Origin: Betaproteobacteria bacterium TMED22
Lineage (GTDB): Bacteria; Pseudomonadota; Gammaproteobacteria; Burkholderiales; Eutrophovitaceae
DNA length: 64,000 bases
Assembly (NCBI GenBank): GCA_002167745.1
Contig: NHCB01000015.1
Span: 105,726-169,725 of the forward strand
Direction of reading: 5' to 3'
Positions 32,002-59,021 of the stretch are shown one piece after another. The translations under genes and the position numbers were made by a program. Numbering within the stretch: the first letter of the stretch is position 1; the number at the start of each line of letters is the position of its first letter. The notes below the pieces were generated by a model. The model was given only the letters and a program-made list of their open reading frames with translations, did not search any database and was not told the origin of the DNA.

Positions 32002-32035
32002 AAACTCCTCCAATGCTATCGCAGTATTAATAATA

Positions 32036-32058
32036 GAGCGGGCCTATTAAGCCCGCTC
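32036..32058 (-). terminator. Perfect 8-bp stem hairpin between receptor genes 2 and 1
   Basis: GAGCGGGC and GCCCGCTC form an uninterrupted GC-rich stem with a seven-base loop, 25 bases after the stop codon of receptor 2. The minus-strand tail (TATTATTAATACTG) is AT-rich but not a pure U-run. It could act as a partial terminator or protect the 3' end of the receptor 2 mRNA, raising the level of that receptor above its downstream genes. Confidence 0.6.
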
Positions 32059-32082
32059 GACTAACTAAACAATCAAATTGTC

Positions 32083-33174: not shown

Positions 33175-33377
33175 AAATTTCTCCCAATGCACTTTTTAGT
33201 GCTTTTAATTTCATAAGTTTTTCAATTTCATACCTGTGAATCGAATTATAAATAAGAAAAGTTAAAATACGATTCTTTAAGTTTAGAAACCATACATCCG
33301 CTAATTACGAGACCCTATCACGAGTCTGCCTCTCTACCAAGAAACGTTTCATACCGAAGATACCCCATTAACTTGGC

Positions 33378-34475
33378 CTATCTCATATAACCATGCTCAC
33401 CCCAAAGTTTGTAATCCTCTCGAAATTTTGTATAAGAATCATGTACTTTTTTGAACTTAGGGTTTATTGCAGACTCTTCTACCACAACCTCATTCCAAGC
33501 TTTACGATACGCATTAAGAATTTCATCCGACCAATAATGGATCGTGACTCCATGTTTTTCCACCATTCTGCGCATAGCAGGAGCCTGGGTAGCCTCACCC
33601 TCTGCAATCATTTCTTTAAGAATATAACCACATGAAACCTCTACAATCCTTTGGTGATAAGCGGAAAGAGAATTCCATATATCCATATTGAAAAACGCGT
33701 GTCCAAGGGCTGTAGCTTGGTGCCAACCAGGAAAATAGTAGTGCTTCGCTACTTGATAAAAACTTGAGCTCTCGTCTACTGAGGGGACTGAGAACTCGGT
33801 CGCATCAATGGTGCCTAACTGCAGCGCCTGAAAGATGTCACCACCAGCAAGTAACTGAGTGGCAACACCTAATTTATCCATCACCTTGGCACCTAAACCA
33901 AAGAAGCGCATCTTCATACCCTTAAGATCTTCAACGGAATTGATTTCCTTTCTAAACCAACCCGACGCTTCTGGCGGCGTTATAAAACAAGGCACTGCCT
34001 TTATATTGTGTTCTGCATACATTTCATCTGCCAGCTCGTTTCCACCTCCATATTGGAGCCACGCCAACAATTCATCGGCAGAAGCGCCAAAGGGAACTGA
34101 AGTAAAAAAACTAAACGCTAGATCATTGCCTGCGTAAAAACCAGATGTTGACCAAGCGACATCTACAGAGCCCTTCGATACGGCTGGAATGGCCTCCAAC
34201 GCTGGCACCAAAGCGCCAGGTTCAAAAAATTTTAACTCTAAAGTCCCCGCCGAGACCTCCTCAACGGTTTTTGAGAAACGCACCCCATTCGAACCAATCA
34301 ACTCAAGAGATGTTGGGAAAGCACTTGCCATATTCAGTTTGACTTTTTGTTGTACTTTTTGACCGTCCGACCCTGATGAGGGCTGCGATACATCTCCACC
34401 CCCATCACCGCATCCACTCATTGCGATTACAATTGCGAGCGTCAGAAGGCTCGCCACCAAACTACCTACTCTCAT
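33378..34475 (-). CDS. dctP: TRAP solute receptor 3 (DctP, divergent paralogue, lipoprotein)
   Basis: A 365-residue TRAP receptor, more distant from receptors 1 and 2 (about half identical by eye) but with the same core landmarks: MASAFPTSLELIG, MRFFGLGAKVMDKLGVATQLLAGG and ALQLGTIDATEF followed by SVPSVDE. A lipobox (AMSGC) ends the signal peptide. GGGAGGGG lies just before the ATG. It is the promoter-proximal gene of the TRAP unit, so the whole order is receptor 3, receptor 2, receptor 1, dctQ, dctM. Its pocket-loop sequence differs again (TALGHAFFN). Confidence 0.92.
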   Translation of the reverse strand: MRVGSLVASLLTLAIVIAMSGCGDGGGDVSQPSSGSDGQKVQQKVKLNMASAFPTSLELIGSNGVRFSKTVEEVSAGTLELKFFEPGALVPALEAIPAVSKGSVDVAWSTSGFYAGNDLAFSFFTSVPFGASADELLAWLQYGGGNELADEMYAEHNIKAVPCFITPPEASGWFRKEINSVEDLKGMKMRFFGLGAKVMDKLGVATQLLAGGDIFQALQLGTIDATEFSVPSVDESSSFYQVAKHYYFPGWHQATALGHAFFNMDIWNSLSAYHQRIVEVSCGYILKEMIAEGEATQAPAMRRMVEKHGVTIHYWSDEILNAYRKAWNEVVVEESAINPKFKKVHDSYTKFREDYKLWGEHGYMR

Positions 34476-44626: not shown

Positions 44627-45034
44627 TTAATCAATTTTTTTATGCGCGCCATCACAGAAAGGTTTCATTTGAGAAGCTCCGCAGCGACACAATTTCACTT
44701 GGTTACCCTGCCAAATTACGGATCGTTCATCGACGAGGGACACAGGCCCGGATATATGCAAAGGCCCACCCTTGATTCCAGCGACAGCAGTTGATCCATC
44801 CTCTGGACTAGGTCTTTCGTTAGTGACCACGTACTCACACTCAAGCTGATCTTGCGTATTAAACGAAAAAGAGTTGTGAGATTCATCGCAAAACGGAGCG
44901 CGGCCCGTCCTTCCGCAACGACAGAACGCTAATGAATCATGTTTCATAACACGAGATAACATCTCCTCATTTAGGTAGACAAATGTGCCAAAAAAATAAA
45001 GCGGTCCATCTTTGATTACTTTAATCTTGAGCAT
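44627..45034 (-). CDS. Double CDGSH iron-sulfur protein
   Basis: A 135-residue protein with two CDGSH-type [2Fe-2S] modules. The first uses Cys38, Cys40, Cys49 and His53 (CRCGRTGRAPFCDESH); the second uses Cys116, Cys118, Cys127 and His131 (CRCGASQMKPFCDGAH). The three-Cys, one-His ligation is diagnostic. Between them the IKGGPLHISGPV segment is typical of the bacterial two-domain subtype. I use the ATG at 45034; the frame is open a further nine codons to a TTG within the SDR gene end. It is the last gene of the benzoate-related run and may carry electrons, which is inference. Confidence 0.88.
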   Translation of the reverse strand: MLKIKVIKDGPLYFFGTFVYLNEEMLSRVMKHDSLAFCRCGRTGRAPFCDESHNSFSFNTQDQLECEYVVTNERPSPEDGSTAVAGIKGGPLHISGPVSLVDERSVIWQGNQVKLCRCGASQMKPFCDGAHKKID

Positions 45035-45045
45035 GACCGATTGTT

Positions 45046-45828
45046 CTAATGTGCAGTCCAACCACCATCAACCGAATAGGAAGAACCAGTGATCGATGAT
45101 GCTTGTTCGGAGGCAAGAAACAAAGCTAGCGCAGCAATTTCATTAACCTGTACAAATTTTCTAGTTGGCTGTCGCTCCAAGATTAAATTGCGGATCACCT
45201 CAGTCTGAGATATTGATTTTTCACGCGATAAGGTCTCAACCTGAGTTTTAACGAGAGGCGTCTCTACCCAACCTGGACAAATGGCGTTACAAGTAATCCC
45301 GGACTCGGCAACCTCCAAGGCTATTGTCTTAGTAAAGCCAATTAGCCCATGTTTCGCTGCCACATAAGCGGATTTGTTTACAGAGGCGACCAGTCCGTGA
45401 GCCGATGCAATATTGATGATTCTGCCAAACCCTTGATTACGCATACTTGGTATGAGTAATCGGCTCATATGAAATGCCGAGGATAAATTAACAGCCAAGA
45501 TGAGGTCCCACTTGTCAATCGGAAAGTGCTCTACCGGCGACACATGCTGAACTCCAGCATTATTAATCAAAACATCGACTTCACCCAGGGCGTCACCTGC
45601 GTCTCCCGCGAAGCGCTCAATCTCACGAGGTTTCGACATGTCTGCTCCAGAAGAGAACACCTGAACACCAAAATCCTCTTTAATACCATGTTCAATTTCT
45701 TGTATATCTTGCGCATTGTCTAAACCATTCAAGCCAATATCGTAACCGTTCGATGCAAACTCTTTCGCAATTCCTAAGCCGATACCAGAAGTAGACCCAG
45801 TAATTAAAGCGACTTTCCTTCTACTCAT
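45046..45828 (-). CDS. 3-hydroxybutyrate dehydrogenase-like SDR
   Basis: A 260-residue classical short-chain dehydrogenase resembling D-3-hydroxybutyrate dehydrogenase. Features are the NAD loop GSTSGIGLGIAKEFA, NNAGVQHVSPVE, the catalytic Ser with YVAAKHG (Tyr-x-x-x-Lys) and CPGWVETPLVKTQ, plus the C-terminal SITGSSYSVDGGWTAH. It starts at the ATG at 45828 with GAGGAT upstream and overlaps the hydrolase stop by eight bases. It could process hydroxyacid or hydroxyacyl intermediates late in benzoate breakdown, or simply link to ketone-body metabolism. Confidence 0.85.
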   Translation of the reverse strand: MSRRKVALITGSTSGIGLGIAKEFASNGYDIGLNGLDNAQDIQEIEHGIKEDFGVQVFSSGADMSKPREIERFAGDAGDALGEVDVLINNAGVQHVSPVEHFPIDKWDLILAVNLSSAFHMSRLLIPSMRNQGFGRIINIASAHGLVASVNKSAYVAAKHGLIGFTKTIALEVAESGITCNAICPGWVETPLVKTQVETLSREKSISQTEVIRNLILERQPTRKFVQVNEIAALALFLASEQASSITGSSYSVDGGWTAH

Positions 45829-46618
45829 AGCGATCCTCACACAGGCTATCTTCAACAAATTTCGTTATAGCATCAATCGTGGCACGGGTTTGGTCAACAT
45901 GCGGAGAATGCCCACACTCCTTTAGGATGACTCGTTGAGTCGGCGCTGGCGATAACTTTTCAATAACTTCAACTTGCGCTAACGATCCATATGGATCGTT
46001 AGCGCTTTGAATGAGCAAAGATTCACAAGTAAGGTTTTCAACATACGTTTTAATATCCCAATGCCTAAACTCCTGCGATAACCAAATGTCGTTCCAACCC
46101 CAAAATGCGGATTTGACATCCGCATGGTAGCGTTCTAACTTCTTAGGTAACTCTGTTGTTTCAAAGGCAACTCGAGCCTGCTCAATGCTCTCTACCGTTA
46201 AGTCTTCTACAAAAACATGAGGCGCCATCAAGACCAGTCCGCCCACGTCGTATCCTCCGCCATTATGAATCAAAGCGATAGAGGCTCCATCACTATGTCC
46301 AATGAGTATCGGCCTATGGACGTTTATGTGTTTTAAGAACTCTGGAAGAATATTAAGGGCCTCTTCATGCATATATTTAATCGGTCTTTTCTCGGCAAGA
46401 GGAGTGGATCCACCGTAACCATACCTGGAGTAAGTGAATACACGGCAGCCTGTCGCTGAAGCCAAGTCCTCAGGAAAGCTCTTCCATAAACCAACGGAGC
46501 CCAAACCCTCATGCAGCAAAACTAACGCATCACCAGTGGCAATTACGTCATCGGACTCGACGCATCGATACTCCAAACGTTTATCATCGAGATCAAAATA
46601 ACTATCCGTAATTTTCAT
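45821..46618 (-). CDS. Alpha/beta hydrolase in the benzoate operon, lactonase-like
   Basis: A 265-residue alpha/beta hydrolase. HEGLGSVGLWKSFPEDLA is the oxyanion segment, GHSDGASIAL gives the serine nucleophile, ANDPYG the catalytic aspartate, and KECGHSPHVDQ the histidine. Box clusters in other bacteria often encode a lactone hydrolase-like protein, so the enzyme may open a shunt lactone or hydrolyse a dead-end CoA ester; this is inference. GAGGG precedes the start by about 12 bases. A 30-bp perfect palindrome sits inside its coding sequence at the catalytic-aspartate region. Confidence 0.85.
   Translation of the reverse strand: MKITDSYFDLDDKRLEYRCVESDDVIATGDALVLLHEGLGSVGLWKSFPEDLASATGCRVFTYSRYGYGGSTPLAEKRPIKYMHEEALNILPEFLKHINVHRPILIGHSDGASIALIHNGGGYDVGGLVLMAPHVFVEDLTVESIEQARVAFETTELPKKLERYHADVKSAFWGWNDIWLSQEFRHWDIKTYVENLTCESLLIQSANDPYGSLAQVEVIEKLSPAPTQRVILKECGHSPHVDQTRATIDAITKFVEDSLCEDRYE
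45976..46005. repeat. 30-bp perfect palindrome inside the hydrolase gene
   Basis: The 15-base arm GCGCTAACGATCCAT is followed immediately by its exact reverse complement, with no spacer and the centre CATATG. The repeat lies within the coding sequence that specifies the catalytic-aspartate segment, so it survives under coding constraint. Transcribed, it would form a long hairpin; as DNA, it would suit a dimeric binding protein. It does not extend: base 45975 and 46006 are both T. Confidence 0.95.
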
Positions 46619-46657: not shown

Positions 46658-47374
46658 TCAGACTCCCAACCAGTTTTTAAGTGCTTCTGGATGCTCAATT
46701 AATTTTGGTGAAACATCATCAAATACAATCTTACCTTTAACCATTACGACACATCGATTTGATATTTTTGAAACTGCTTTAAAGTTCTTATCGACAATTA
46801 GAGCCGAAATACCAGATTCTTGTACGACTTTAATTATGCCCCATATGTCTTGCGCAATTAGAGGCGCAAGTCCCTCGGTAGCCTCATCCAATATCAATAA
46901 ATCAGGATTGGTTAATAAGGCTCGGCCGATACTCAACATCTGCTGCTCGCCTCCAGACAATTGCTGCCCCCCATGCATCAATCGTTCCTTGAGCCGAGGA
47001 AAACTATCAAGCACTCGATCATAGGTCCACTCTATCCGACCCTCGAAACCCGATCGAGCAGCCAAGATTAAGTTTTCTTTGACAGATAAATTCTTGAAAA
47101 TCCCGCGGCCCTCAGGCACGTACGCTATACCGCCTCTCGCAAGCGTATGAGTAGGTAAAGTTTTGGTATTCTGCTCTCGGAATTGAATTTCACCAGAGCT
47201 AATAGAAACCAAGCCCAAAAGACACTTTATTAACGTGGTCTTACCCATTCCATTTCTACCCATGAGCCCCACCGTTTCACCACGTTTAATTTCCAGATTC
47301 ACGCCGTGAAGCACATGACTCAAACCATAGTGCGCATGCAGGTCTGTCAATTTAACAAGCGTATTAAGCATCAA
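46658..47374 (-). CDS. livF: Branched-chain-type ABC transporter ATPase LivF (benzoate uptake)
   Basis: A 238-residue ABC ATPase of the LivF type: Walker A GRNGMGKTTLIKC, the signature QLSGGEQQMLSIGRA, Walker B LLILDEATEGLAP and the LivF hallmark EGRGIFKNLSVKENL. It forms a HAAT-family importer with the neighbouring LivG, LivM, LivH and binding protein. The LivG gene overlaps its start by 11 bases. Placement in a benzoate gene set makes benzoate, or a related aromatic acid, the likely substrate. Confidence 0.92.
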   Translation of the reverse strand: MMLNTLVKLTDLHAHYGLSHVLHGVNLEIKRGETVGLMGRNGMGKTTLIKCLLGLVSISSGEIQFREQNTKTLPTHTLARGGIAYVPEGRGIFKNLSVKENLILAARSGFEGRIEWTYDRVLDSFPRLKERLMHGGQQLSGGEQQMLSIGRALLTNPDLLILDEATEGLAPLIAQDIWGIIKVVQESGISALIVDKNFKAVSKISNRCVVMVKGKIVFDDVSPKLIEHPEALKNWLGV

Positions 47375-48116
47375 TAGATGTGCCTAAATAAGCCTCTTGG
47401 ACTCGAGGGCTTGAGCGAACGACGGCAGGTTTATCACTTTCAATAATCTCGCCATTTTGCATCACTGTTAGCGTATCAGCTAACGCAAACACTGCGTCCA
47501 TATCATGCTCTACCAATATAACTGCAAAGTCTGATCGGATTCTCTGAAGCAGCGCTATCATGTTTAAAGACTCTTCCGCACCCATACCAGCTAGAGGCTC
47601 ATCTAACAGTAATACCTTTGGGTCAGTTGCTAATGCTAATGCGATTTCGATCTGTCTCTGTTCTCCGTGAGATAGCTCACTGGCCTTCTTATATGAAAGT
47701 GAATCCAGCTGCAATCTTTCTATCACACGCCTAGACCCACTTTCGACATCAGGATAAGCATTAACGCTTCTCATAAATTGCATAGACATATCGAGACGAG
47801 ACTGAACGGCAATGTTGCAGTTCTCAAGGACGCTTAGACTGGGATAAATATTAGTGCGCTGATAACTACGGCCTACTCCCAGAAGACTCATCTTTGTAGA
47901 CCCATATCCAGTGACGTCGACCCCATCAACCACTATTTTTCCTTCAGTCGGCCGTAACTCCCCCGACAATAAGTTCATCAAGGTACTTTTACCGGCACCG
48001 TTAGGACCTATAACAGCATGAATATGCCCTCGCTCGCAGGACAGGGAAACTTTCGAGACAGCGGTTAATCCAGAGAATTTTTTTGTCAGCCCTCGAGCCT
48101 CAATTAGCGCCCCCAC
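47364..48116 (-). CDS. livG: Branched-chain-type ABC transporter ATPase LivG (benzoate uptake)
   Basis: A 250-residue ABC ATPase: Walker A GPNGAGKSTLMNLL, GVGRSYQRTNIYPSLSVLEN, signature LSHGEQRQIEIALA, Walker B LLLDEPLAGMG and the LivG-type C-terminus PRVQEAYLG. The GTG at 48116, immediately after the livM stop and preceded by AAAGGATC, gives the family length. Longer in-frame starts (to 48191) lie inside livM and are not needed. It overlaps livF and is translationally linked to livM. Confidence 0.9.
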   Translation of the reverse strand: MGALIEARGLTKKFSGLTAVSKVSLSCERGHIHAVIGPNGAGKSTLMNLLSGELRPTEGKIVVDGVDVTGYGSTKMSLLGVGRSYQRTNIYPSLSVLENCNIAVQSRLDMSMQFMRSVNAYPDVESGSRRVIERLQLDSLSYKKASELSHGEQRQIEIALALATDPKVLLLDEPLAGMGAEESLNMIALLQRIRSDFAVILVEHDMDAVFALADTLTVMQNGEIIESDKPAVVRSSPRVQEAYLGTSIDA

Positions 48117-48117
48117 C

Positions 48118-49062
48118 TTAAGATCCTTTTTTAAAAAACTTAAATCCAACCAATCCATGTGGAAAGAAAAGTGCAACAAGAACAATGGCAACCCCAGTCA
48201 AGAGCTGCCAATGTTTGGTGACCATTTGAAAGCCTTCCTCAACGAGCATTAGGGTCGTGGTCCCAATCACCGGTCCAAGTATTGCGCCTTTACCCCCTAA
48301 AATTACCATCATCAGCGCGTGCCCTGATACATGCCAACCAACCATTTCGGGATTAACAACTCCAAACTGAACTGCAGACAAAAACCCGCTTACAGCGGCG
48401 ATCATACTCGCGATCACAAAACACACTAATTTAAATTTATAAGTATTGTAACCAAGCGCCTTAGTTCTATGCTCATTAACACAAATACCTGCTAGTACCC
48501 GGCCAAATGGAGAATGAATTATTGCTCTAATAACTATTAGCACTATAACTGCTGTGATCAGGGCTAGATAATAAAAGTGAACCACATTCGCCAGATCAAG
48601 CTGCCACCAGTCAAAAAAGCTTACGTCAGGTCGACTATTGATATACATACCATCCGAGCCGCCTGCCAAATCCGTATCATGTAAAAAATAGAACAGCATT
48701 TCACCTAGCGCCAATGTAGACATGATGAAAAATATACCTTTAGTGCGCAGAACCAGCGCTCCGAAAATTACACCAAGCACACCCGTACAAAGGATACTGG
48801 CAAGCAGTGCAACAAAAAAGTTCATAGCTGAGTCCACAGGACTCAAAAGTGCCAAAACGTATCCTGAGAATCCGAAAAATGCAGCATGACCAAGACTAAC
48901 TAAGCCTGTAAAACCTACTAATAGATTTAAGCTACTCACAAACACAATCATTATTAGGATCTTCGAAGCAAATTGTATATAGAACCGATCGCCCCAAAAT
49001 GGAAGTAGAAGCAGCGCAAGGAAAATTAATCCAAAAAAAAGTTTTCGAAGTATAGCCCTCAA
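48118..49062 (-). CDS. livM: Branched-chain-type ABC transporter permease LivM
   Basis: A 314-residue permease with about nine to ten hydrophobic helices and the LivM landmarks GLVSLGHAAFFGFSGYVLA, RTKGIFFIMSTLALGEM and GGKGAILGPVIGT. The start is TTG directly after the livH stop with AGGAG about eight bases upstream. A five-residue basic tail (FKFFKKGS) precedes livG. It pairs with LivH to form the membrane pore. Confidence 0.92.
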   Translation of the reverse strand: MRAILRKLFFGLIFLALLLLPFWGDRFYIQFASKILIMIVFVSSLNLLVGFTGLVSLGHAAFFGFSGYVLALLSPVDSAMNFFVALLASILCTGVLGVIFGALVLRTKGIFFIMSTLALGEMLFYFLHDTDLAGGSDGMYINSRPDVSFFDWWQLDLANVVHFYYLALITAVIVLIVIRAIIHSPFGRVLAGICVNEHRTKALGYNTYKFKLVCFVIASMIAAVSGFLSAVQFGVVNPEMVGWHVSGHALMMVILGGKGAILGPVIGTTTLMLVEEGFQMVTKHWQLLTGVAIVLVALFFPHGLVGFKFFKKGS

Positions 49063-49959
49063 TTAATACTCCTTACCAAATATACCTTGAGGACGAAAGA
49101 TCAATATCAAGGCCATAAGTGCGAAGATACTCATGCCAGCCATTTCAGGAAAAATATTTATTCCGAAAATATCGAGACTCATTACCTTACCAAAGGTATC
49201 AATCAAACCAACCAGCAAGGCCGCAACCATCGCCCCCTTAATTGAACCTAGGCCGCCAATTACAACAACTACGAAACTGACAATTAACACCTGACTTCCC
49301 ATTCCCGGAAATACGGAGGATATCGGCGCCGATATCATTCCTGAAAAAGCAGCAAGTGACACTCCGAGAGCGAATATAAATCTATAAACCAGTCCAATAT
49401 TTATGCCCAACGCTTTCGTCATTTCCCGGTCAGACTCGCCAGCCCTGATCATCATACCCAAGCGGGTGTGTTGTATGCCGAAGTACATCAAAATAGCAAT
49501 AACAACACAAACTCCCGAAAGCCATAGTCGATAAATAGGATAAGCTAAATTTTCAGTTAATTGGATTGATCCATCCAATAATGCTGGGATAGCAACACTA
49601 TGCACATCATCACCCCATATAACACTCCGCAACTCAGAAAAAATCAGTATCAAACCATAAGTAACCAGTACTTGCTGCAGGTGGTCTCGATCGTACAAGA
49701 ACCGAATGAACATCCATTCGAGAACTAATCCTAGAAGAAATGCAGCCGCTACTCCAACAAACAACCCAAACCAAAAATTTTCTAACCACCCCATCAATGA
49801 CCAGGCTAGGTAAGCACCGATCATATAAAAACTGCCATGAGCAATATTAATTACGCCCATAATGCCGAAAATTAGCGTTAAACCACTGGCCACCAGAAAC
49901 AACAATAAACCGTATTGAATACCGTTCATGGCTTGAATAAAAATTGCGAATGCGTCCAT
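49063..49959 (-). CDS. livH: Branched-chain-type ABC transporter permease LivH
   Basis: A 298-residue permease with eight or so helices and the LivH motifs FGIMGVINIAHGSFYMIGAY, MIRAGESDREMTKALGIN and VVVIGGLGSIKGAMVAALLVGL. It abuts livM with no gap and starts eight bases after the carboxyltransferase-like gene stop, so the whole set should be one transcript. Confidence 0.93.
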   Translation of the reverse strand: MDAFAIFIQAMNGIQYGLLLFLVASGLTLIFGIMGVINIAHGSFYMIGAYLAWSLMGWLENFWFGLFVGVAAAFLLGLVLEWMFIRFLYDRDHLQQVLVTYGLILIFSELRSVIWGDDVHSVAIPALLDGSIQLTENLAYPIYRLWLSGVCVVIAILMYFGIQHTRLGMMIRAGESDREMTKALGINIGLVYRFIFALGVSLAAFSGMISAPISSVFPGMGSQVLIVSFVVVVIGGLGSIKGAMVAALLVGLIDTFGKVMSLDIFGINIFPEMAGMSIFALMALILIFRPQGIFGKEY

Positions 49960-49967: not shown

Positions 49968-51236
49968 TTAGCTCATAACACTTGAGAGATCGTCAATAAT
50001 ATTGTCGACCACTTGTGCCGTAACCAACTGATTCACACCAATCAGTTCGTCATCTTTCCAGTGCATGAGATCGAGCGCCGATGACGGCAAAACTTGAATT
50101 GAGCCCGTTTTCAACATACTCACCTCAGACGCCGCCGCAGATAGTGCCGCAAAAATTCCACCACCCGTGGGCCTTAGTACGACTACATGCACATGAGCAC
50201 CTTTCGCATGTTTCTGTCTCAAGCATATCGCTAAAGTTGAGAGATACTCTGACAAAAGTAAACGCTCGTCGCTTAAATTAGGTGAATGACTCGAGCAAGC
50301 GATAAGAATTTTTATGCTCAACACAGAATTTGACAAAGCATTAATCGCAGACGTTAAATCAAGAATAGCTTCAGCATCAGCGAAATAATCGGCGGCCAAA
50401 GCGTAAACCGCCATCCCCTCATCAATATGATTATTTAACACTAATAGCGTCGACTTACCGGACCAATTGGTCAGACCACCAATTTCATCGAAATTGATCA
50501 TAGGGTGAGTGGTTTTTTCATTGTGCTGGCGCTCGGAACGGACTAACCTTTTGTCGGGAAATCTATGCTTCAGTTCGTTTAAAAAACTAATATTTGACAT
50601 GGTCAACTTTTGCCTAGATGACAAAAAACGATACATGCCTAACTGATACGCCTTTTCATCGTCGTCTATCAACTGAAACCTGCTTGATGTTTTAGCACGA
50701 GCCACTCCGCTTAATACACCCTGGATATCATCGAGCGTTACGGAATCGTGGTCAAAATCTTTATTCAGCGCTTTGATTAATTTAGGGCCAGACATTGCAA
50801 TCTGTGAACCAGCATTTACTAATACCATGTCGCTGATTGCCGCCAGCATACTACCGCCACCGTAACAATGCCTCATGACCAAAGATAACACCGGAAGTCC
50901 ATCCAATTTAGCCTCAAGCAATTCTCTGTAAAGGAACCTAAAAGCTGCCAAACTCTTAGCGCCTTCCGTGACTCGAACTCCACCTGTGTTAAGTAGCATA
51001 ACCAATGGAAACTTCGATTTTTTAGCTATTCTTATTGCTGCTCGCAGCTGGCCCGCTTCGCGGACGCCAATTGAGCCACCGTAAAGGCTAAAATCGAATC
51101 CTATGACCACTACATTAATCTCTCCTAGAGCGCCTCGAGCAACACGTAGATCTCCTGGAAAATCACATTCAATTTCTATTAGCTCATTAAAAAGCAGCTT
51201 TAACTGTTGATCCAGATCAAGTTGAGACAAACGCAT
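49968..51236 (-). CDS. Fused carboxyltransferase-like protein (malonate decarboxylase beta/gamma type)
   Basis: A 422-residue protein made of two crotonase-fold carboxyltransferase halves. The first, about residues 1-230, has FDFSLYGGSIGVREAGQLR, NTGGVRVTEGAKS and the oxyanion-type HCYGGGSMLAAISD and IAMSGPKLI. The second, about 250-422, has TLLVLNNHIDEGMAVYALA and RPTGGGIFAALSAAASEVSM. Each half matches the layout of malonate decarboxylase MdcD and MdcE, and of AccD/AccA. No acyl-carrier, CoA-transferase or biotin subunit gene is in the window. It sits between the ABC receptor and permease genes of the benzoate operon. The substrate is unknown. Confidence 0.75.
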   Translation of the reverse strand: MRLSQLDLDQQLKLLFNELIEIECDFPGDLRVARGALGEINVVVIGFDFSLYGGSIGVREAGQLRAAIRIAKKSKFPLVMLLNTGGVRVTEGAKSLAAFRFLYRELLEAKLDGLPVLSLVMRHCYGGGSMLAAISDMVLVNAGSQIAMSGPKLIKALNKDFDHDSVTLDDIQGVLSGVARAKTSSRFQLIDDDEKAYQLGMYRFLSSRQKLTMSNISFLNELKHRFPDKRLVRSERQHNEKTTHPMINFDEIGGLTNWSGKSTLLVLNNHIDEGMAVYALAADYFADAEAILDLTSAINALSNSVLSIKILIACSSHSPNLSDERLLLSEYLSTLAICLRQKHAKGAHVHVVVLRPTGGGIFAALSAAASEVSMLKTGSIQVLPSSALDLMHWKDDELIGVNQLVTAQVVDNIIDDLSSVMS

Positions 51237-51353: not shown

Positions 51354-52535
51354 TTAAAGATCACATCCTGAGGCTGGATCTTCTAAACCTTCCCACGCTG
51401 TGCCCACTACATTATTAATTCCGTTTTCCACTCTGACTGTATAGAAGTTTTGAATGGGATTATGGGCTCGGGACATTATCCAGGATCCGCGCGGACTATC
51501 AATTTCTGCCCCCTCCATAGCGCTGATTGCCTCAGCTTTCAGAGATAAATCACCGGATGTCTCCTGTAGTGCTTTTATCAATAATAACCCGGCATCATAA
51601 CCTTGAACGGCATAGACGTCTGCTTCTTCACTATAAGCCGCTCTGTAGGCTTTTCGGAAAGCTAGATTTTTAGCATTCTGCAATCCATCAGCATAATGAA
51701 GTGTCGTCGTAATTCCTTCAGCCGACTCGCCCTGAGCTTCAAGAACTCCCTCCGTTAAAAAGCCTGATCCATAAAGTGGTATCGAGGATTTAAGTCCCGC
51801 CGCAGCATAATCTTTGACAAACTTTACGGCGCCACCCCCAGCGAAGAAGCAAGCAACGGCGTCAGGTTTTAGAGAGGCTATTTCCGTGAGAATAGCCTGA
51901 AATTCAACGTTCGGGAAAGGCACGAACAATTCTTTAATAACCTCGCCTCCAGCAGCTTCAAAACCCTCCCTAAATGAGGCAAGTGCCTCTTCTCCGGCAC
52001 CATACTTCCATGTCACAAAAACCGATCTTCTATGCCCTTGCTCCACCATAATACGGCCAAGTGGATGAGTAGGTTGCCAATTAGAGAAAGATGTCCGAAA
52101 TACGTTTGAAGCACACATTGCACCGGTGGCTGCATTCGCACCAGCATTCGGAATAATCACCAAAGACCCGGTTTCGCGAGCAACTTTTATCATACCCATA
52201 GCAACACCGGAATGGACGGTACCAATAACGACGTCAACATTATCTCTAGTCATAATCTTATTCGCGTTATCGGTCGCCTTCGCCGGATTTGATTCATCAT
52301 CTACCGTGAAAAACTCAATGGTTTTTCCAAATGGACTATCTCCCAGCTCACTCAAGGCCAACTTAAATCCATTCTCAATCGCCATCCCAAGCTTCGCGTA
52401 AGTTCCCGTATAAGGCAACATAAAACCTATGCGAATTGCATCATTATTTTTACTGCAACCAGCTAGCGATAAAAACGACAATCCAGCCAAAGCTGAAGTG
52501 CCAGCCAGAAATTGACGACGATTAGTGTTAAACAT
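51354..52535 (-). CDS. ABC transporter periplasmic receptor (LivK-like, Tat lipoprotein signal)
   Basis: A 393-residue type I periplasmic binding protein, LivK/Peripla_BP_6 family. The N-terminus NRRQFLAGTSALAGLSFLSLAGC has a twin-arginine motif followed by a lipobox cysteine. The mature protein shows IRIGFMLPYTGTYAKLG, VDVVIGTVHSGVAMGM and PDAVACFFAGGGAVKFVKDY. In benzoate operons such receptors bind aromatic acids, so benzoate is likely. Its stop is followed by the two inverted repeats before the next gene. Confidence 0.9.
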   Translation of the reverse strand: MFNTNRRQFLAGTSALAGLSFLSLAGCSKNNDAIRIGFMLPYTGTYAKLGMAIENGFKLALSELGDSPFGKTIEFFTVDDESNPAKATDNANKIMTRDNVDVVIGTVHSGVAMGMIKVARETGSLVIIPNAGANAATGAMCASNVFRTSFSNWQPTHPLGRIMVEQGHRRSVFVTWKYGAGEEALASFREGFEAAGGEVIKELFVPFPNVEFQAILTEIASLKPDAVACFFAGGGAVKFVKDYAAAGLKSSIPLYGSGFLTEGVLEAQGESAEGITTTLHYADGLQNAKNLAFRKAYRAAYSEEADVYAVQGYDAGLLLIKALQETSGDLSLKAEAISAMEGAEIDSPRGSWIMSRAHNPIQNFYTVRVENGINNVVGTAWEGLEDPASGCDL

Positions 52536-52567: not shown

Positions 52568-54175
52568 TTACGTTCTCTGCCGTAACTTGAACCGTTGAAT
52601 TTTACCCGTCGCTGTTTTAGGCAACTCATCGACAAACTCAATCCACCTTGGATATTTAAACGGTGCAAGCTTGGATTTAACATACTCTTTTAAATCTTCT
52701 ACCAATTCGGAAGATGCCTGAGATGAATCCACCAGCACCACATACGCTCGTGGCTTTATAAGTTTATCCTCATCTTCATCGCCCACTACTGCAGCCTCAA
52801 GAACCGCAGCATGTGATACCAGAACTCCCTCCACTTCGAAAGGGGAAACGTACAACCCGCTCACCTTGAGCATATCGTCTGATCGTCCACCATAAGTATA
52901 AAACCCTTGCGCATCTACACTATACTTATCTCCGGCACGGGTCCACTCACCACAAAACGTTTCTCGCGACTTTTGTCTTTGGTTCCAGTACAAGTTTGCT
53001 GCTGAAGGCCCTTTAATCTGGAGCTCTCCCAGCTCGCCTGTAGGAACGTCCTGTCCATTTTCATCAACTAATCGTATTTCGTATCCTGGTACGGGCTTGC
53101 CCGTACTGCCATATTGACAATCCCCCGGTCGGTTTGACAAAAATATATGCAACATTTCAGTGGAACCGATACCGTCCAATATTTCGCTACCGAAGTGTGA
53201 TGTCCATCGCTTTCCGATTTCTGCAGGTAGTGCCTCGCCGGCAGAAGTCGCCACTCGAATCGAGACCTCAGAGCGATTGGGCAAATGATCACTTGCTAGC
53301 ATCGCTCCGAATAAAGTAGGAACACCATAAAATATAGTGGGTTGATGCTCTTTCAATCTCTTAAATACCGAATCAGGTGTAGGTCTCTCTGCCATTAAGA
53401 CAGTCGTTGCTCCAACCGATAGAGGAAATGTAAGTCCATTTCCCAATCCATATGCGAAAAATAATTTAGCAGCAGAAAAGACGACATCAGTTTCTTTGAT
53501 ACCTAAAACTGGCTTAGCATAAAGTTCGGCTGTGTGCGCTAAGCTGGAGTGGACGTGAATCGTGCCCTTTGGAGCTCCTGTTGATCCTGATGAATATAAC
53601 CAAAAACAGCTATCATCACACGAGGTAACAGCAGGGTCGCACTCATCGCTGGCTAGACTTTGAAGCCTTTGTAAGTTGTGATATCCAGATAATTCGTCTC
53701 CCGAGACGATAATATGTTGCAAATATTTTGATTTCGAAATTGCTCTGTCCAGTTTTTCCATCAACGACGATGTAACAATTAGCGCCTTAGCGCGACTATC
53801 TTCCAACATGAACTCATAGTCGTCTGGCGTTAACAAGGTATTCACAGCAATCGGAACAACGCCCACCTTAATGGCTCCAAGGAATACAGCGGGAAAATCA
53901 ACCGTATCCGAATGCACAATCATAATGCGATCTTCTATATTGAGGCCAAGCTTCAAAAAGGCATTACCCGATTGGTTCGCACGTGCTATCAACTCCTCAT
54001 ATGTGTAACGTCCAGCGTCATCAATATAAGCTATTTTCTTGGATCGACCCGCAAGAATATTGCGCTCCAGAAGGTCATGTGCCGCGTTAAATGCTCGAGG
54101 CATATGAATGATAGGAGGACTCGTAGAGTGATCAGACGAATAGCTCTTCAACTTCGTGGTGTCACTTTTCAACAC
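52568..54175 (-). CDS. bclA: Benzoate-CoA ligase
   Basis: Activates benzoate to benzoyl-CoA with ATP and CoA, the entry step of the box pathway. A 535-residue ANL-superfamily enzyme. The phosphate-binding loop is YSSGSTGAPKG (194-204), followed by GIGSTEMLHIFLSNRPG, YGGRSDDMLKVSGLYVSP and the C-terminal catalytic lysine Lys525 in PKTATGKIQRF. The FFAYGLGNGLTFPL and FGAMLAS segments resemble benzoate/4-hydroxybenzoate-CoA ligases. It is 32 bases before the ABC receptor and 47 after the flavodoxin. Confidence 0.93.
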   Translation of the reverse strand: MLKSDTTKLKSYSSDHSTSPPIIHMPRAFNAAHDLLERNILAGRSKKIAYIDDAGRYTYEELIARANQSGNAFLKLGLNIEDRIMIVHSDTVDFPAVFLGAIKVGVVPIAVNTLLTPDDYEFMLEDSRAKALIVTSSLMEKLDRAISKSKYLQHIIVSGDELSGYHNLQRLQSLASDECDPAVTSCDDSCFWLYSSGSTGAPKGTIHVHSSLAHTAELYAKPVLGIKETDVVFSAAKLFFAYGLGNGLTFPLSVGATTVLMAERPTPDSVFKRLKEHQPTIFYGVPTLFGAMLASDHLPNRSEVSIRVATSAGEALPAEIGKRWTSHFGSEILDGIGSTEMLHIFLSNRPGDCQYGSTGKPVPGYEIRLVDENGQDVPTGELGELQIKGPSAANLYWNQRQKSRETFCGEWTRAGDKYSVDAQGFYTYGGRSDDMLKVSGLYVSPFEVEGVLVSHAAVLEAAVVGDEDEDKLIKPRAYVVLVDSSQASSELVEDLKEYVKSKLAPFKYPRWIEFVDELPKTATGKIQRFKLRQRT

Positions 54176-54222: not shown

Positions 54223-54696
54223 TCACTTTTGGGACCAGACGCTTTCACATAATGTTAACCAACCCTGAGACCAATCAGCGGCCTCCTCCTCTGGCATTGT
54301 GCCAGAGCTGGCATCATGCATTAGTATATCGCCTATTCGGACAGCTCCGCACGAGTTTAAAAGCTCATCAAACCGTTTTCCTCCAAAGCAATATGTTTCA
54401 GCATACGTTCGGTCACCTAGTGCAATGACGCCATAATACATCTTTCGTAAATCGGGCTTTGCATCATCAATAGCCTCGATGAAAGACCTAGCATTATCTG
54501 GAACGTCGCCCTGCCCATAGGTAGACGTACAAATTAAATGAACGTGGTCAGATTCAAATACTTCAGGAGTCAATCGATCCATATCTATCGTCTGCACCGC
54601 GATTCCATCGCCATCGAATCTCAACTCCAACTCTTGTGCAACCAATTGGGCATTGCCGGTCATGGTGCCAATCAAGATTTTGATCTGTTTACTCAT
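54223..54696 (-). CDS. Flavodoxin, probable electron carrier of the box cluster
   Basis: A 157-residue flavodoxin-like protein. FMN binding is indicated by the phosphate loop GTMTGNAQ (residues 10-17), the STYGQGDVPDNARSF loop near the isoalloxazine ring and ALGDRTYAETYCFGGKRFDELL. It resembles MioC/flavodoxins that are not fused to a reductase. The start is the ATG at 54696; twelve earlier codons lie in the promoter region. As the first gene of the box operon it may take the place of BoxA as reductant for BoxB. That role is inferred from position only. Confidence 0.85.
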   Translation of the reverse strand: MSKQIKILIGTMTGNAQLVAQELELRFDGDGIAVQTIDMDRLTPEVFESDHVHLICTSTYGQGDVPDNARSFIEAIDDAKPDLRKMYYGVIALGDRTYAETYCFGGKRFDELLNSCGAVRIGDILMHDASSGTMPEEEAADWSQGWLTLCESVWSQK

Positions 54697-54928
54697 ATAC
54701 CTACCGCCGCTCCAAACACTTACAATTCGCAATATATAATATGCAATATATTACCTATATAGACATATTTGATGATTTATTATACACTTTTATGGAATTT
54801 GTAGTATCATTCATTACTTATCTTTTAAAAAAGCAATATAGTGCAATTAGTAAGGAACTTGACTGCGCCGTCTATGTCTAGGAGTACTGATAGTTTTAAA
54901 AAATTATAACGACGTAGGAAGATTAATT
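54697..54928. promoter_or_regulatory. Divergent box promoter region with GCAATATA repeats
   Basis: This AT-rich spacer separates boxR (plus) from the flavodoxin gene (minus). GCAATATA occurs at 54729, 54743 and 54833, with GCAATTA at 54843. The first pair is 14 bases apart and the second pair ten. Two TGCA cores lie exactly 100 bases apart (54742 and 54842). BoxR/BzdR-type regulators are described as binding TGCA-containing repeats (recalled knowledge), so these are candidate operators. I could not define a firm -35/-10 pair. Confidence 0.5.
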
Positions 54929-55864
54929 ATGCTTGGAACAGCGCATCATACTGGGATCAATCATGGCTCGACTCTGCCAACAAATACACGGGAAACGGCC
55001 AACTCCGAATTCCTGAGCTTAGTCGGATCCAGAGTTAAAAAAATTCGTAAAGAAAAAAAACTGACTAGAAAAGTTTTGTCCGAACATTCAGGGGTATCGG
55101 AGAGGTATCTCGCCTTATTAGAGTCCGGTCAAGGCAATGTATCCATAGCACTTTTACGGCAAGTAGCGCAATCTTTAGACGTCGAACCAGAGATTCTTAT
55201 CTCAAATACTGCTCCAGTGAATTCAGAATCACGCCTGTTACTAGGATTACTGGGGGGCCTAACGAGTTCCGATCGACTAAGACTCAAAAATCAGATACTG
55301 AAAGAACTCCGTAATTCTCCAGTAAGCCGCAGTTATCGGATAGCGCTAATTGGAATGAAAGGGGCGGGAAAAACAACCGTAGGAGAAAGACTCTCGACCA
55401 TCTTAGACATCCCGTTTGTTGAGATTGATAAGGAAATTGAGAAACTTGCAGATGCTCCATTATCTGAAATTTTTATTACCTACGGACAAGAAGGTTATAG
55501 GAATTTAGAGAAAACTTGTCTGGAAAATTTATTACGGAACGGCAGTAACTGTATTATTTCAACCGGCGGAGGCATTGTTCAAGAACCATCGGTTTATGAT
55601 CTCCTTTTATCTACTTGCTACACAGTATGGTTGAAAGCTTCTCCAAAAGAACATATGGACAGAGTCGTTGCACAAGGTGATCTCAGACCCATCGCCGGAA
55701 ACAGTAAAGCTATGGATCAATTAAAAAATATTCTTCTCAAGCGACAATCAAGCTACGAAAAGGCAGATTTAACAGTGACGACTGACGGGAAAGCCCCCGG
55801 AATTATTGCTAGTCAAATTCTTGCGGATCGAACGCTTCGAAAGTTAATACAGCACACAAATTAA
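54929..55864 (+). CDS. boxR: BoxR-type regulator (XRE domain fused to shikimate kinase-like domain)
   Basis: BoxR controls aerobic benzoate genes, with benzoyl-CoA as the inducer. The 311-residue protein has an XRE helix-turn-helix (about residues 31-90: GSRVKKIRKEKKLTRKVLSEHSGVSERYL) fused to a shikimate kinase-like domain (about 130-311) with Walker A GMKGAGKTTVG (142-152), the DKEIEK segment and the GGGIVQEP loop. This fusion defines the BoxR/BzdR family. AGGAAG precedes the start. boxC begins 18 bases after its stop. Confidence 0.94.
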   Translation: MLGTAHHTGINHGSTLPTNTRETANSEFLSLVGSRVKKIRKEKKLTRKVLSEHSGVSERYLALLESGQGNVSIALLRQVAQSLDVEPEILISNTAPVNSESRLLLGLLGGLTSSDRLRLKNQILKELRNSPVSRSYRIALIGMKGAGKTTVGERLSTILDIPFVEIDKEIEKLADAPLSEIFITYGQEGYRNLEKTCLENLLRNGSNCIISTGGGIVQEPSVYDLLLSTCYTVWLKASPKEHMDRVVAQGDLRPIAGNSKAMDQLKNILLKRQSSYEKADLTVTTDGKAPGIIASQILADRTLRKLIQHTN

Positions 55865-55882
55865 ACCGGACACTTAACAACC

Positions 55883-57565
55883 ATGCAGCCATTAGTCCAA
55901 AAAGAAGAAAGATCTACTGCTGACGTAGTGCTCTTTGACACCCGGCCCGAACAATACAAACATTGGACGCTGTCAATCGCAGATAACACCGCGATATTGA
56001 GTATGGATGTAAACGAAGATGAAGGCTTAAAACCTGGATATAAGCTCAAACTCAACTCCTACGACTTGGGCGTTGATATCGAACTCTATGACGCCATTAA
56101 TCGAATCAGGTTCGAGCATCCCAGGGTCAAATGCGTCGTGATTACTTCCGCGAAGGAGAGGATGTTTTGCTCCGGAGCCAATATCTATATGCTTGGACAA
56201 TCAAGCCATCCTTGGAAAGTAAATTTTTGTAAGTTCACGAATGAAACCAGAAATGGCATTGAGGATTCAAGCAAACATGAGGGTCTTAAATTTCTGGCGG
56301 CAATTAACGGTACTATCGCGGGCGGAGGTTACGAACTTGCGCTAGCCTGCGATAAGTTGCTCATGATTGATGACCGTTCGTCTAGCGTAAGTCTTCCCGA
56401 GGTGCCGCTTTTGGGTGTTCTACCCGGCACCGGGGGACTCACACGAGTCATTGACAAGCGGAAGGTGAGAAGAGACCTGGCAGATGTATTTTGCTCAACG
56501 AGTGAAGGCGTCCGGGCCGAACGTGCAAAAAAATGGGGTCTAGTCGACGAAATTGCCAAACCAAACATGTTCGATGAAGCGCGGAACCAATTAATTTCAA
56601 AACTAACTTCTCAAAGTAAGCGACCAAACGAAGCCGTCGGCGTGAACCTGACGAAATTAGATAGAACTATGGACAATGATGGAATCCATTACTCAACAAT
56701 TGATGTTGATATCAACAGAGCCTCACGAACGGCGTCAATAACCATAAAAGCGCCGCCTGCTTCATTATCAGCAGATCTGAATTCCATTCTTAAAGCCGGA
56801 GCATCGTGGTGGCCGCTGACATTTGCAAGAGAATTAGATGACACGATACTGCTATTGCGGACTAACGAACTAGAGATCGGGACTTGGATTTTTCGAACAA
56901 GCGGTCGCGTGACAGACGTGCTTGAAATGGATCGCATACTTAATAAACATCAAGAAAATTGGTTCGTAAAAGAGACTTTAGGGTATTTACGCCGCACGTT
57001 AGCCCGCCTTGATGTATCGTCAAGAACAATATTCTCGCTTATCGACGAGGATTCATGCTTTGCGGGAACATTATTTGAAATTGCGCTCTCTTCAGATCGC
57101 GTTTTTATGCTATCAGAAACGGAAAATGGTACTAAACCAAACATTGCTCTTTCAATATTAAATTTTGGGAGCTTTCCAATGGTCAACCATCTCACTAGGC
57201 TCCAAAATCGTTTTTACGGCCACGAAGATCAGCTGGAAGTATTAACACCCATTGAGGGTCAGTTGCTGAATGCAGAAGAGGCGCTTGAGTTGGGATTGGT
57301 AACATTTGCCCCGGATGATATAGATTGGGATGACGAAATTCGAATAGCACTCGAGGAGCGCAGCAGTTTATCTCCAGACGCGCTGTCAGGCATGGAAGCA
57401 AACCTGAGATTCGCTGGCCCAGAAACAATGGAGACACGGATTTTTGCGAGGCTTTCCGCTTGGCAGAATTGGATTTTTATTCGGCCCAACGCCGTGGGTA
57501 AGCAAGGAGCGCTCAAGGTTTTTGGCAGTGGGAAAAAACCAGCTTTCAGCTGGCCGAGAATTTAA
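55883..57565 (+). CDS. boxC: 2,3-epoxybenzoyl-CoA dihydrolase
   Basis: BoxC opens the ring of 2,3-epoxybenzoyl-CoA with two waters, giving 3,4-dehydroadipyl-CoA semialdehyde and formate. The 560-residue length and double crotonase-like architecture are characteristic: the first crotonase domain spans about residues 30-270 with CSGANIYMLGQSSHPWKV and AINGTIAGGGYELALACD, and the second continues to about 560 with EDSCFAGTLFEIALSSDR. It lies between boxR and boxB on the same strand with short gaps. Confidence 0.95.
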   Translation: MQPLVQKEERSTADVVLFDTRPEQYKHWTLSIADNTAILSMDVNEDEGLKPGYKLKLNSYDLGVDIELYDAINRIRFEHPRVKCVVITSAKERMFCSGANIYMLGQSSHPWKVNFCKFTNETRNGIEDSSKHEGLKFLAAINGTIAGGGYELALACDKLLMIDDRSSSVSLPEVPLLGVLPGTGGLTRVIDKRKVRRDLADVFCSTSEGVRAERAKKWGLVDEIAKPNMFDEARNQLISKLTSQSKRPNEAVGVNLTKLDRTMDNDGIHYSTIDVDINRASRTASITIKAPPASLSADLNSILKAGASWWPLTFARELDDTILLLRTNELEIGTWIFRTSGRVTDVLEMDRILNKHQENWFVKETLGYLRRTLARLDVSSRTIFSLIDEDSCFAGTLFEIALSSDRVFMLSETENGTKPNIALSILNFGSFPMVNHLTRLQNRFYGHEDQLEVLTPIEGQLLNAEEALELGLVTFAPDDIDWDDEIRIALEERSSLSPDALSGMEANLRFAGPETMETRIFARLSAWQNWIFIRPNAVGKQGALKVFGSGKKPAFSWPRI

Positions 57566-57611
57566 GCAGATTACGCCATATTTTGTATAACGATAACGGA
57601 TTGAATAAATT

Positions 57612-59021
57612 ATGAGCATCAATTACAACGATAAAATTCCTAATAATGTGAATCTTGCAAATGATAGGAAACTACAAAGAGCACTAGAACATTGGCAACC
57701 ACATTTTTTAAAATGGTGGGATGAGCAAGGCCCAAAAGATTATCAATCAAACGACGTTTATTTAAGAACTGCTGTAGGGGTTGACGCAAAAGGTTGGGCA
57801 AGTTATGGACATGTAAAAATGCCTGACTACCGTTGGGGGATATTTCTTGCCGACCAAATGCCTGAAAGAAAAATTGGTTTTGGCGACCACTTCGGTGAAC
57901 CAGTTTGGCAACAGGTTCCAGGAGAATTACGCTCTCAATTTCGAAGAATCATCGTGACTCAAGGCGACACAGAGCCAGCTTCTGTGGAGCAGCAGAGATT
58001 ACTCGGACTGACATGCCCCTCACTTTACGATCTAAGAAATTTATTCCAAGTCAATGTTGAAGAAGGAAGACACCTCTGGGCAATGGTATACCTACTTCAT
58101 TGCTACTTTGGCCGGGATGGGAGAGAAGAAGCTGAAGAACTTCTTGCCAGACATTCTGGAGACACAGATAATCCTCGCATCTTAGGCACATTTAACGAAC
58201 CCATCAGTGACTGGCTATCGTTCTTTATGTTTACCTACTTCACTGATCGAGATGGTAAGTTTCAGTTGAAAAGCCTCAGCGAATCAGCGTTTGACCCTCT
58301 CGCAAGGACCTGCCGATTCATGCTGACCGAAGAAGCCCATCATATGTTTGTTGGCGAAACTGGGGTCGGCCGAGTAATTAAAAGATCCCTCGAAGTGATG
58401 AAGGAAACTGGCACTGACGACCCGAGCATTATCCGTAAAAATGGAGCCGTTGATCTAGTGACAATTCAAAAATACTTAAACTTTTGGTTTAGCTCCTCCC
58501 TCGATTTATTCGGCTCAGAGATTTCATCCAATGCCGCATCGTCTTTTGCAAGCGGCATCAAAGGACGGCCTGACGAGGGCAGATACGAGGATCACATTTG
58601 TAATGACGCGACCTACGATATTGATACACCCGAAGGTACTGAACAAGTGAGCTTAAGAAATGCAATGAATGATGTGACCCGAGAAGCCTACGTGAAAGAC
58701 TGCGAAATTGGTATTAAACGCTGGAACATGATGATCAAACGCGCTAACTTTGACATAACTTTAACGTTGCCAAGTACCCGATTTCATAGAACGATTGGAA
58801 GTTGGGCGAACGTTCCAACGGAACCCAGCGGGAAATCTATAAGCCAAACGGAATACAAAAACGGAATCCTCAGCTGGTTGCCAACCGAGCAAGATCGGGC
58901 TTTCATCAGAAGCTTAATGCAGCGCGTAGTTGAGCCAGGAAAAATGGCCGGATGGATAGCCCCCCCTGACCGAGGCATCAACAACAATCCCGTTGACTAT
59001 GAGTACGTTCGACTGAAGTAA
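57612..59021 (+). CDS. boxB: Benzoyl-CoA 2,3-epoxidase, oxygenase component
   Basis: BoxB is the di-iron monooxygenase that adds one oxygen atom to benzoyl-CoA, forming the 2,3-epoxide, using O2 and electrons from a reductase. The 469-residue protein has the family length. The expected di-iron ligand set is visible: Glu121, Glu151, His154 (NVEEGRHLW), Asp212, Glu241 and His244 (LTEEAHHMFVGE). It ends DYEYVRLK, like the family. It starts 46 bases after boxC. The reductase gene boxA that normally accompanies it is absent; the next gene is an unrelated RND pump on the other strand. Confidence 0.95.
   Translation: MSINYNDKIPNNVNLANDRKLQRALEHWQPHFLKWWDEQGPKDYQSNDVYLRTAVGVDAKGWASYGHVKMPDYRWGIFLADQMPERKIGFGDHFGEPVWQQVPGELRSQFRRIIVTQGDTEPASVEQQRLLGLTCPSLYDLRNLFQVNVEEGRHLWAMVYLLHCYFGRDGREEAEELLARHSGDTDNPRILGTFNEPISDWLSFFMFTYFTDRDGKFQLKSLSESAFDPLARTCRFMLTEEAHHMFVGETGVGRVIKRSLEVMKETGTDDPSIIRKNGAVDLVTIQKYLNFWFSSSLDLFGSEISSNAASSFASGIKGRPDEGRYEDHICNDATYDIDTPEGTEQVSLRNAMNDVTREAYVKDCEIGIKRWNMMIKRANFDITLTLPSTRFHRTIGSWANVPTEPSGKSISQTEYKNGILSWLPTEQDRAFIRSLMQRVVEPGKMAGWIAPPDRGINNNPVDYEYVRLK

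Follow-up and report, generated by a model that had tools for sequence, protein, structure and literature searches.

An aerobic benzoate (box) gene cluster without boxA suggests a flavodoxin-based electron supply to the benzoyl-CoA epoxidase BoxB

The window analysed here (the whole stretch of 64 kb, positions 105,726 to 169,725 of contig NHCB01000015.1 of Betaproteobacteria bacterium TMED22) contains a divergent box gene cluster, one arm being boxR-boxC-boxB and the other opening with the gene of a small flavodoxin, which is followed after 47 bases by benzoate-CoA ligase and then by a branched-chain-type ATP-binding cassette (ABC) transporter, a hydrolase, a dehydrogenase and a CDGSH-like protein. 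Benzoate-CoA ligase, BoxB, BoxC and BoxR, all reported by the first-pass annotation of this DNA, each exceed a curated cut-off, and their co-occurrence in the window marks a cluster of the aerobic benzoyl-CoA (box) pathway; the position of the flavodoxin at the head of the divergent operon, also reported there, is borne out by its PF00258 match and by gene order. The genes and the site on which the argument turns are the following.

57612..59021, plus strand: boxB, diiron benzoyl-CoA 2,3-epoxidase of the flavodoxin-linked clade (TIGR03225, about 765 bits against a cut-off of 499, profile positions 1-471)
55883..57565, plus strand: boxC, 2,3-epoxybenzoyl-CoA dihydrolase (TIGR03222, 879 bits against a cut-off of 712)
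54929..55864, plus strand: boxR, XRE/shikimate-kinase-like regulator (NF006015, 330 bits against a cut-off of 204; PF01202, PF01381)
54831..54846, plus strand: BoxR-operator-like palindrome between flavodoxin and boxR (3 mismatches to ATGCACTATAGTGCAT)
54223..54696, minus strand: box flavodoxin of 157 amino acids, proposed electron donor of BoxB (PF00258, 86 bits against a cut-off of 25; box-flavodoxin profile, 254 bits)
52568..54175, minus strand: benzoate-CoA ligase, second gene of the flavodoxin operon (TIGR02262, 805 bits against a cut-off of 375)

The BoxB of the window is full length and matches the solved BoxB structures 3per and 3pm5 with 672 bits, the alignment with 3per spanning 3-468. 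Residues E121, E151, H154, D212, E241 and H244, aligned to 3per, are invariant across 15 members of its clade, over which mean column identity is 81%; we take these six to be the diiron ligands, as in the structure from Azoarcus (Aromatoleum) evansii. An AlphaFold2 model of BoxB was poor (predicted local distance difference test score, pLDDT, 52) and was not used.

The open reading frame (ORF) of the flavodoxin as listed reaches 54732, and an internal ATG at 54696, which matches the start of its relatives, is probably the true start (54223-54696). The protein is the sole PF00258 match in its own genome, and by sequence and fold matches it is nearer to YqcA, MioC and cindoxin than to classical FldA: among solved structures, sequence comparison gives 96 bits with YqcA (2m6r) and 75 bits with MioC (2hna), and the best fold match in the PDB to its confident AlphaFold2 model (pLDDT 94.6) is cindoxin (4oxx, 32% identity), followed by YqcA. 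It belongs to the flavodoxins by virtue of a PF00258 score above the gathering cut-off and a flavodoxin fold, and it falls below the curated cut-offs of two short-flavodoxin families (MioC NF006531, 103 against 158 bits; PRK08105 NF005989, 129 against 160 bits).

The first-pass annotation had found no BoxA reductase in the window, had proposed an electron chain other than BoxAB, and had named a boxA elsewhere in the genome as the observation that would count against that proposal. A profile search of the whole genome, window included (an assembly of 1.88 Mb in 17 contigs, rated 95% complete), gave no match to boxA (TIGR03224) above the cut-off of 459.2 bits, and in the four congeners analysed none at E<=1e-20 either. 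Three weak matches in the own genome, the best with 40.5 bits, fall within what are presumably a relative of RnfB, a small ferredoxin and a relative of GltD that has iron-sulfur motifs. Six-frame searches reading through stops, although not aimed at pseudogenes, revealed no BoxA pseudogene.

The pairing of flavodoxin and BoxB without boxA recurs in many bacteria and is no local oddity. A search of 250 genomes from the order, counting the own one, matched TIGR03225 in 53, of which 28 have boxA above its cut-off. Their BoxB scores form two groups, at 838-918 bits and at 735-770 bits, the window BoxB (764 bits) belonging to the lower; outside both lie a second copy in G180 (529 bits), a partial match in G126 and a weak match in G187. 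A lower-group boxB is present in 22 genomes, 20 of them without a boxA match at E<=1e-20, and the remaining two, G010 and G103, possess a boxB of each group, with boxA in between. A higher-group boxB without a lower-group copy is present in 29 genomes, 26 of which have boxA; the three without it are G052, where the contig ends inside boxA, and G084 and G164, of one genus. A profile built from 21 box flavodoxins and searched in the same 250 genomes scores 226-273 bits in all 22 lower-group genomes, a strongly positive outcome of the check for recurrence in relatives that the first-pass annotation had proposed. In the other 228 genomes it reaches at least 220 bits in two (G126, 266; G180, 223) and at least 200 bits in three, G049 being added (211); the next matches are in G187 (156) and G171 (153), and the remaining matches listed score at most 104 bits, in frames of at least 460 codons. 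The flavodoxin gene of G126 adjoins boxR on a contig fragment, and that of G216, G153, G241, G103 and G185 lies away from boxB, with the ligase on another contig or locus, a separation explained by contig ends or by the second locus. Both states occur within a single genus (g31), where G075 carries the flavodoxin but lacks boxA; in G029, G118, G157, G193 and G224 boxA is present and the flavodoxin profile gives no match at E<=1e-12.

Beyond the order, a scan of named genomes covered the best 80 of 591 relatives, a sample weighted to the window's clade. At boxB, 34 loci have flavodoxin without boxA, three of these with too little sequence after boxB to exclude boxA, and one locus has both; 15 have boxA without flavodoxin in the stretch, among them L072, a tandem with its flavodoxin elsewhere, and nine have neither. 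The remainder consists of five boxA loci in which flavodoxin could not be judged, 15 loci without boxA whose upstream sequence is too short, and one split boxB, that of L117, which for this reason is not given a label in the counts. Single-boxB boxA loci with at least 7 kb upstream carry the flavodoxin in none of 14 cases among the best 80. Across the retrieved loci in which gene order is testable, 41 of 43 place the flavodoxin gene between boxR, on the opposite strand, and the ligase gene, on its own strand. Flavodoxin-type records are titled Beta-, Alpha- and Gammaproteobacteria and an Acidobacteriaceae bin, and the isolates include Polaromonas sp. A23, Ramlibacter lithotrophicus, Sneathiella sp. 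HT1-7 and Sphingobium wenxiniae. A genome-wide search for boxA in 36 named-locus genomes (L082, L119, L122 and L126 left out) showed it to be absent from six of the eight flavodoxin-type isolates. Assembly gaps are rejected as the reason for the absence of boxA here because it is likewise absent from these six and from the one-contig genomes G148 and G185. Two Myxococcota loci (L121 and L136) have no flavodoxin, and boxA lies elsewhere in their genomes.

Phylogenetic analysis places the window BoxB in a distinct and widespread flavodoxin-linked clade. On a FastTree tree of 138 BoxB rows, 47 boxA-linked and 52 flavodoxin-linked rows are separated by two changes, the boxA clade being set off by a branch of 99% support; on an IQ-TREE tree of 135 rows, 49 boxA-linked and 56 flavodoxin-linked rows are separated by one. 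L004, L011, L033 and L061 were dropped as duplicates before both trees and L055, L124 and L059 before the IQ-TREE run, and for eight loci the flavodoxin label was taken from a gene elsewhere in the genome, on a different contig or at a different locus. L053 and L079, and L024 and L056, are identical in sequence; because both members were counted in the IQ-TREE tally, in the locus-label and gene-order counts and in the intergenic-gap tally (below), the number of distinct entries in each is one lower. Five loci (L042, L067, L049, L072 and L078) have a tandem arrangement, boxC-boxB-boxA-boxB, with one BoxB in each clade; in the first four, boxB1 groups with the boxA clade, boxB2 groups with the flavodoxin clade, and the flavodoxin is present in the genome, but none was found in that of L078. 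These strains may hold both donor systems naturally. Ferrovibrio (L127) and L130, which have the flavodoxin in their genomes, branch just outside the boxA-linked clade, and since they do so a history is conceivable, though rather doubtful as the root of the BoxB tree is not fixed, in which the flavodoxin was the ancestral donor of BoxB and BoxA a later replacement gained once. The tree of the flavodoxins themselves is poorly supported (13 of 64 inner branches starred).

Binding sites of BoxR and BzdR are ATGCACTATAGTGCAT-like palindromes, and BoxR divergons are known, according to the text available from PMC6449761. With at most 3 mismatches the window contains one such match, at 54831-54846, exactly between flavodoxin and boxR; the chance expectation for the window is 0.20, and 19 of 100 shuffles hold at least one. 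The flavodoxin is probably co-regulated with boxB, because operator-like sites recur in the gap between flavodoxin and boxR, the best site having p<=0.05 by mononucleotide shuffles in 35 of 40 gaps, window included.

As to the separate NADPH reductase that the first-pass annotation had included in its electron chain, an Fpr-type reductase is encoded in the own genome, on the same contig as the flavodoxin and about 116 kb away, and as an intact open frame in all four congeners; in the assembly the own copy is broken into two frames. Absence of Fpr from the own genome had been suggested by PF00175, which finds no reductase there, and was ruled out when a congener Fpr used as query found the gene. 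Two congener Fpr proteins score 199 and 201 bits on NF008178, under its cut-off of 390, and one gives at most 212 bits with solved ferredoxin-NADP reductases and 165 bits with flavodoxin reductase (1fdr). No flavodoxin NADPH reductase was recognized in the part of the window whose ORFs were read (about 28.9-64 kb), and PF07992, with 21 matches in the own genome, yields no clear flavodoxin reductase among the 20 loci read. A thioredoxin-reductase-like gene of the own genome was rejected as a candidate since it looks like a true TrxB, presumably marked as such by its CATC motif. In five other loci (L077, L084, L093, L100 and L114) a gene of the FprA/adrenodoxin-reductase type lies on the same strand, adjacent to boxB or up to about 1.3 kb downstream, at or near the usual place of boxA; the L093 protein gives 305-318 bits with the FprA and adrenodoxin reductase structures 1lqt and 1cjc. 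In the Rhodospirillaceae loci L093, L101 and L114 a further oxidoreductase-like gene lies nearby, which we take to be 2-oxoacid:acceptor oxidoreductase-like and which is a possible further source of electrons there. In the own assembly (G000), contig C13 (42400-44600) and contig C16 contain regions with many ambiguous bases, and one of these regions interrupts the Fpr gene.

These comparisons support the proposal of an electron chain other than BoxAB, and with a probability of roughly three in four a dedicated single-domain flavodoxin, fed by Fpr, replaces BoxA in the distinct, widespread clade of BoxB to which the window protein is assigned. BoxR would keep both arms of the divergon shut through the operator between flavodoxin and boxR, and upon derepression the ligase, BoxC, BoxB and the flavodoxin would be made together. 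The most likely chain is NADPH to Fpr-type reductase to flavodoxin to BoxB: NADPH would reduce the flavin mononucleotide (FMN) of the flavodoxin through the housekeeping Fpr-type ferredoxin/flavodoxin-NADP reductase, a role that the FprA-type gene at or near the usual place of boxA might take in some other lineages, and the flavodoxin would dock on BoxB and pass electrons singly to the diiron site, which with O2 would form 2,3-epoxybenzoyl-CoA, the substrate of BoxC.

Several observations weigh against a flavodoxin-fed BoxB. Evolutionary distances of flavodoxin and BoxB correlate at 0.790, no better than those of ligase and BoxB (0.792), and the partial correlation given the ligase is 0.43 against 0.30 for a boxR control; therefore specific co-evolution of flavodoxin and BoxB is not established. 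Comparison of the BoxB clades shows no charge or residue signature of a flavodoxin dock, mean net charge being -12.4 in the flavodoxin clade against -10.1, so that the former is not the more basic. Nine BoxB positions that differ at 90% or more in both clades were considered as a marker of the donor and ruled out, because L127 and L130 mostly have the boxA-clade residue despite having the flavodoxin. G084 and G164 show neither boxA nor a flavodoxin of at least 55 bits genome-wide, and the same is true, with boxA judged by its cut-off, of L076, L081 and L103 in the flavodoxin clade and of L117; L135, beside the boxA clade, has neither genome-wide. Two flavodoxin-type isolates, both Ramlibacter (L086 and L110), carry boxA elsewhere in the genome. 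Conversely, the genomes of G049, G180, L125 and L128 have the flavodoxin without a flavodoxin-clade boxB in the stretch read, and in two of the four it adjoins an ABC transporter. Finally, the Fpr of the own genome lies in two frames amid ambiguous bases (93 N in 2,201).

Among other explanations, it is unlikely that another reductase acting in trans, either a ferredoxin reductase of Rieske- or PaaE-like type or Fpr together with a ferredoxin, reduces BoxB while the flavodoxin serves some other enzyme of the regulon. The own genome does encode a small ferredoxin and a 312-residue reductase of the flavin adenine dinucleotide (FAD)/[2Fe-2S] type (PF00970; best NCBIfam match GbcB, 85 bits; PaaE, 65 bits; both far under the cut-offs), and L076, L081 and L103 seem to manage without the flavodoxin; yet in all 22 genomes of the order that have the boxA-less BoxB group the flavodoxin accompanies it, and no reductase family recurs in the flavodoxin-type stretches, the most frequent being the FprA type in 4 of 51. 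A protective or repair function, in which the flavodoxin would be a redox buffer or would re-reduce oxidized BoxB instead of donating electrons in turnover, has a parallel in the long-chain flavodoxin FldX1, which is reported to counter oxidative stress during aromatic catabolism in Paraburkholderia xenovorans (PMC10983741, in the text available), but is very unlikely: protection should help equally beside boxA, yet none of the 14 single-boxB boxA loci with sufficient upstream sequence carries the flavodoxin. That the cluster is a non-working remnant left by loss of boxA, as the available text of PMC10803450 implies for incomplete box contexts and in which the missing BoxA of the P. xenovorans copy is seen as an impediment, is hardly credible, even with boxA absent here, in view of a full-length, well-conserved BoxB with its presumed diiron ligands invariant and of an arrangement kept in records titled Beta-, Alpha- and Gammaproteobacteria and Acidobacteriaceae.

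The same-strand run beyond the ligase continues as follows.

51354..52535, minus strand: periplasmic binding protein of a putative benzoate ABC transporter (PF13458)
49968..51236, minus strand: carboxyltransferase-domain protein (PF01039, 54 bits; relatives in 3 of 51 flavodoxin-type loci)
49063..49959, minus strand: ABC permease, presumably LivH-like (sequence, position; homologues in relatives)
48118..49062, minus strand: ABC permease, presumably LivM-like (sequence, position; homologues in relatives)
47364..48191, minus strand: ABC ATPase, LivG-like (PF00005, PF12399)
46658..47374, minus strand: ABC ATPase, LivF-like (PF00005)
45821..46618, minus strand: alpha/beta hydrolase of the operon (PF00561; family in 9 of 51 flavodoxin-type loci)
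45046..45858, minus strand: ORF in the same-strand run, which we take to be a short-chain dehydrogenase (sequence only)
44627..45061, minus strand: 144-residue protein, last of the run after the ligase (relatives in 3 of 51 flavodoxin-type loci)

The last protein has no NCBIfam match at E<=1e-10; two motifs, read by eye, are assumed to be CDGSH-like. Elsewhere in the window (30922-34475) are three similar genes in a row, encoding 363-369 residues; these are presumably solute-binding proteins, adjoining TRAP-type permease genes.

Box-related genes also occur in other arrangements. Two ABC transporter operons, in L234 (7500-12823) and L148 (2865-8114), contain no box genes but begin with the gene of a box-type flavodoxin, in genomes whose boxA-type clusters lie elsewhere; this flavodoxin gene is perhaps the leftover of a lost flavodoxin-type cluster. 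The slot that separates boxR from the ligase holds or adjoins a DUF4863 gene in L236 (4551-5009, Mycetohabitans pBRH01), with homologues in L042, L067, L068, L070 and L145, in boxA and flavodoxin clusters alike (160-213 bits mutually). L235 (8737-13081, Nonomuraea gerenzanensis) has an actinobacterial boxB and boxC, with no boxA or flavodoxin within about 9 kb.

The cluster resembles the BoxAB system of A. evansii in its divergent arrangement of BoxB, BoxC, BoxR and benzoate-CoA ligase, and differs from it in having no BoxA, at boxB or elsewhere in the genome, a BoxB of a separate clade, and a flavodoxin heading the ligase operon; by its genes it does not qualify as a two-component BoxAB epoxidase system. 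A small FMN flavodoxin tied to an oxygenase is also found in the P450cin system, and in the window the flavodoxin gene lies likewise beside the oxygenase genes; the oxygenase here, however, is a diiron epoxidase and not a P450, and no counterpart of the FAD reductase that feeds cindoxin was recognized in the cluster. The P450cin chain runs from NADPH through the FAD reductase and cindoxin to the P450, and E. coli flavodoxin reductase can stand in for the P450cin reductase (PMC9687028, in the text available). The short flavodoxins MioC and YqcA are the nearest solved structures, but the window protein, below their cut-offs, is box-linked. In the phenylacetyl-CoA epoxidase PaaABCE, as described in the text available from PMC4498308, PaaA is a structural homologue of BoxB, but PaaE is a FAD/[2Fe-2S] reductase and the complex has extra subunits.

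Two further loci, L149 (7333-8657, genome G187) and L182 (1501-2970, from the genome of L131), encode a related flavodoxin and, divergently from it, a PaaA-like diiron protein of 254-270 residues, which scores 61-68 bits on TIGR02156, far under the cut-off of 280, the L182 protein giving 59 bits with 4mud. Downstream of the PaaA-like gene lies what we take to be an enoyl-CoA hydratase gene and, in L149, presumably also two PaaK-like ligase genes. These loci possibly represent a second flavodoxin-driven aryl-CoA epoxidase, and flavodoxin-driven diiron acyl-CoA epoxidases may form a general class beyond BoxB.

The available text of PMC10803450 describes ligases with an incomplete box context in Ferrovibrio, Polaromonas, Ramlibacter and others, whose lower pathway it calls undefined, and BoxA is the gene that it names as missing in P. 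xenovorans and in one member of a clade dominated by Pandoraea; from the loci analysed here we infer that boxA is the missing gene in the Ferrovibrio, Polaromonas and Ramlibacter cases of that partly available source. Its main text nowhere uses the word "flavodoxin". Bins of SAR324 contain the ligase, BoxB and BoxC together (PMC4782131), BoxA not being named in the passages concerned. In the partly accessible literature, most subscription journals lying outside the search, no text joining a flavodoxin to boxB was found. By its gene content the cluster would be a new electron-supply variant of the known box pathway, and the evidence suggests a second, overlooked way of powering the BoxB reaction.

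Epoxidation of benzoyl-CoA is a key step of one route of aerobic aromatic breakdown. Should BoxB prove to have a second electron system, a cluster could be complete without boxA, boxA would be a poor marker of the pathway, and a single family of diiron epoxidases would be served by an iron-sulfur flavoprotein in some cases and by a flavodoxin in others. Strains with both types of BoxB side by side make the question of the partner directly testable.

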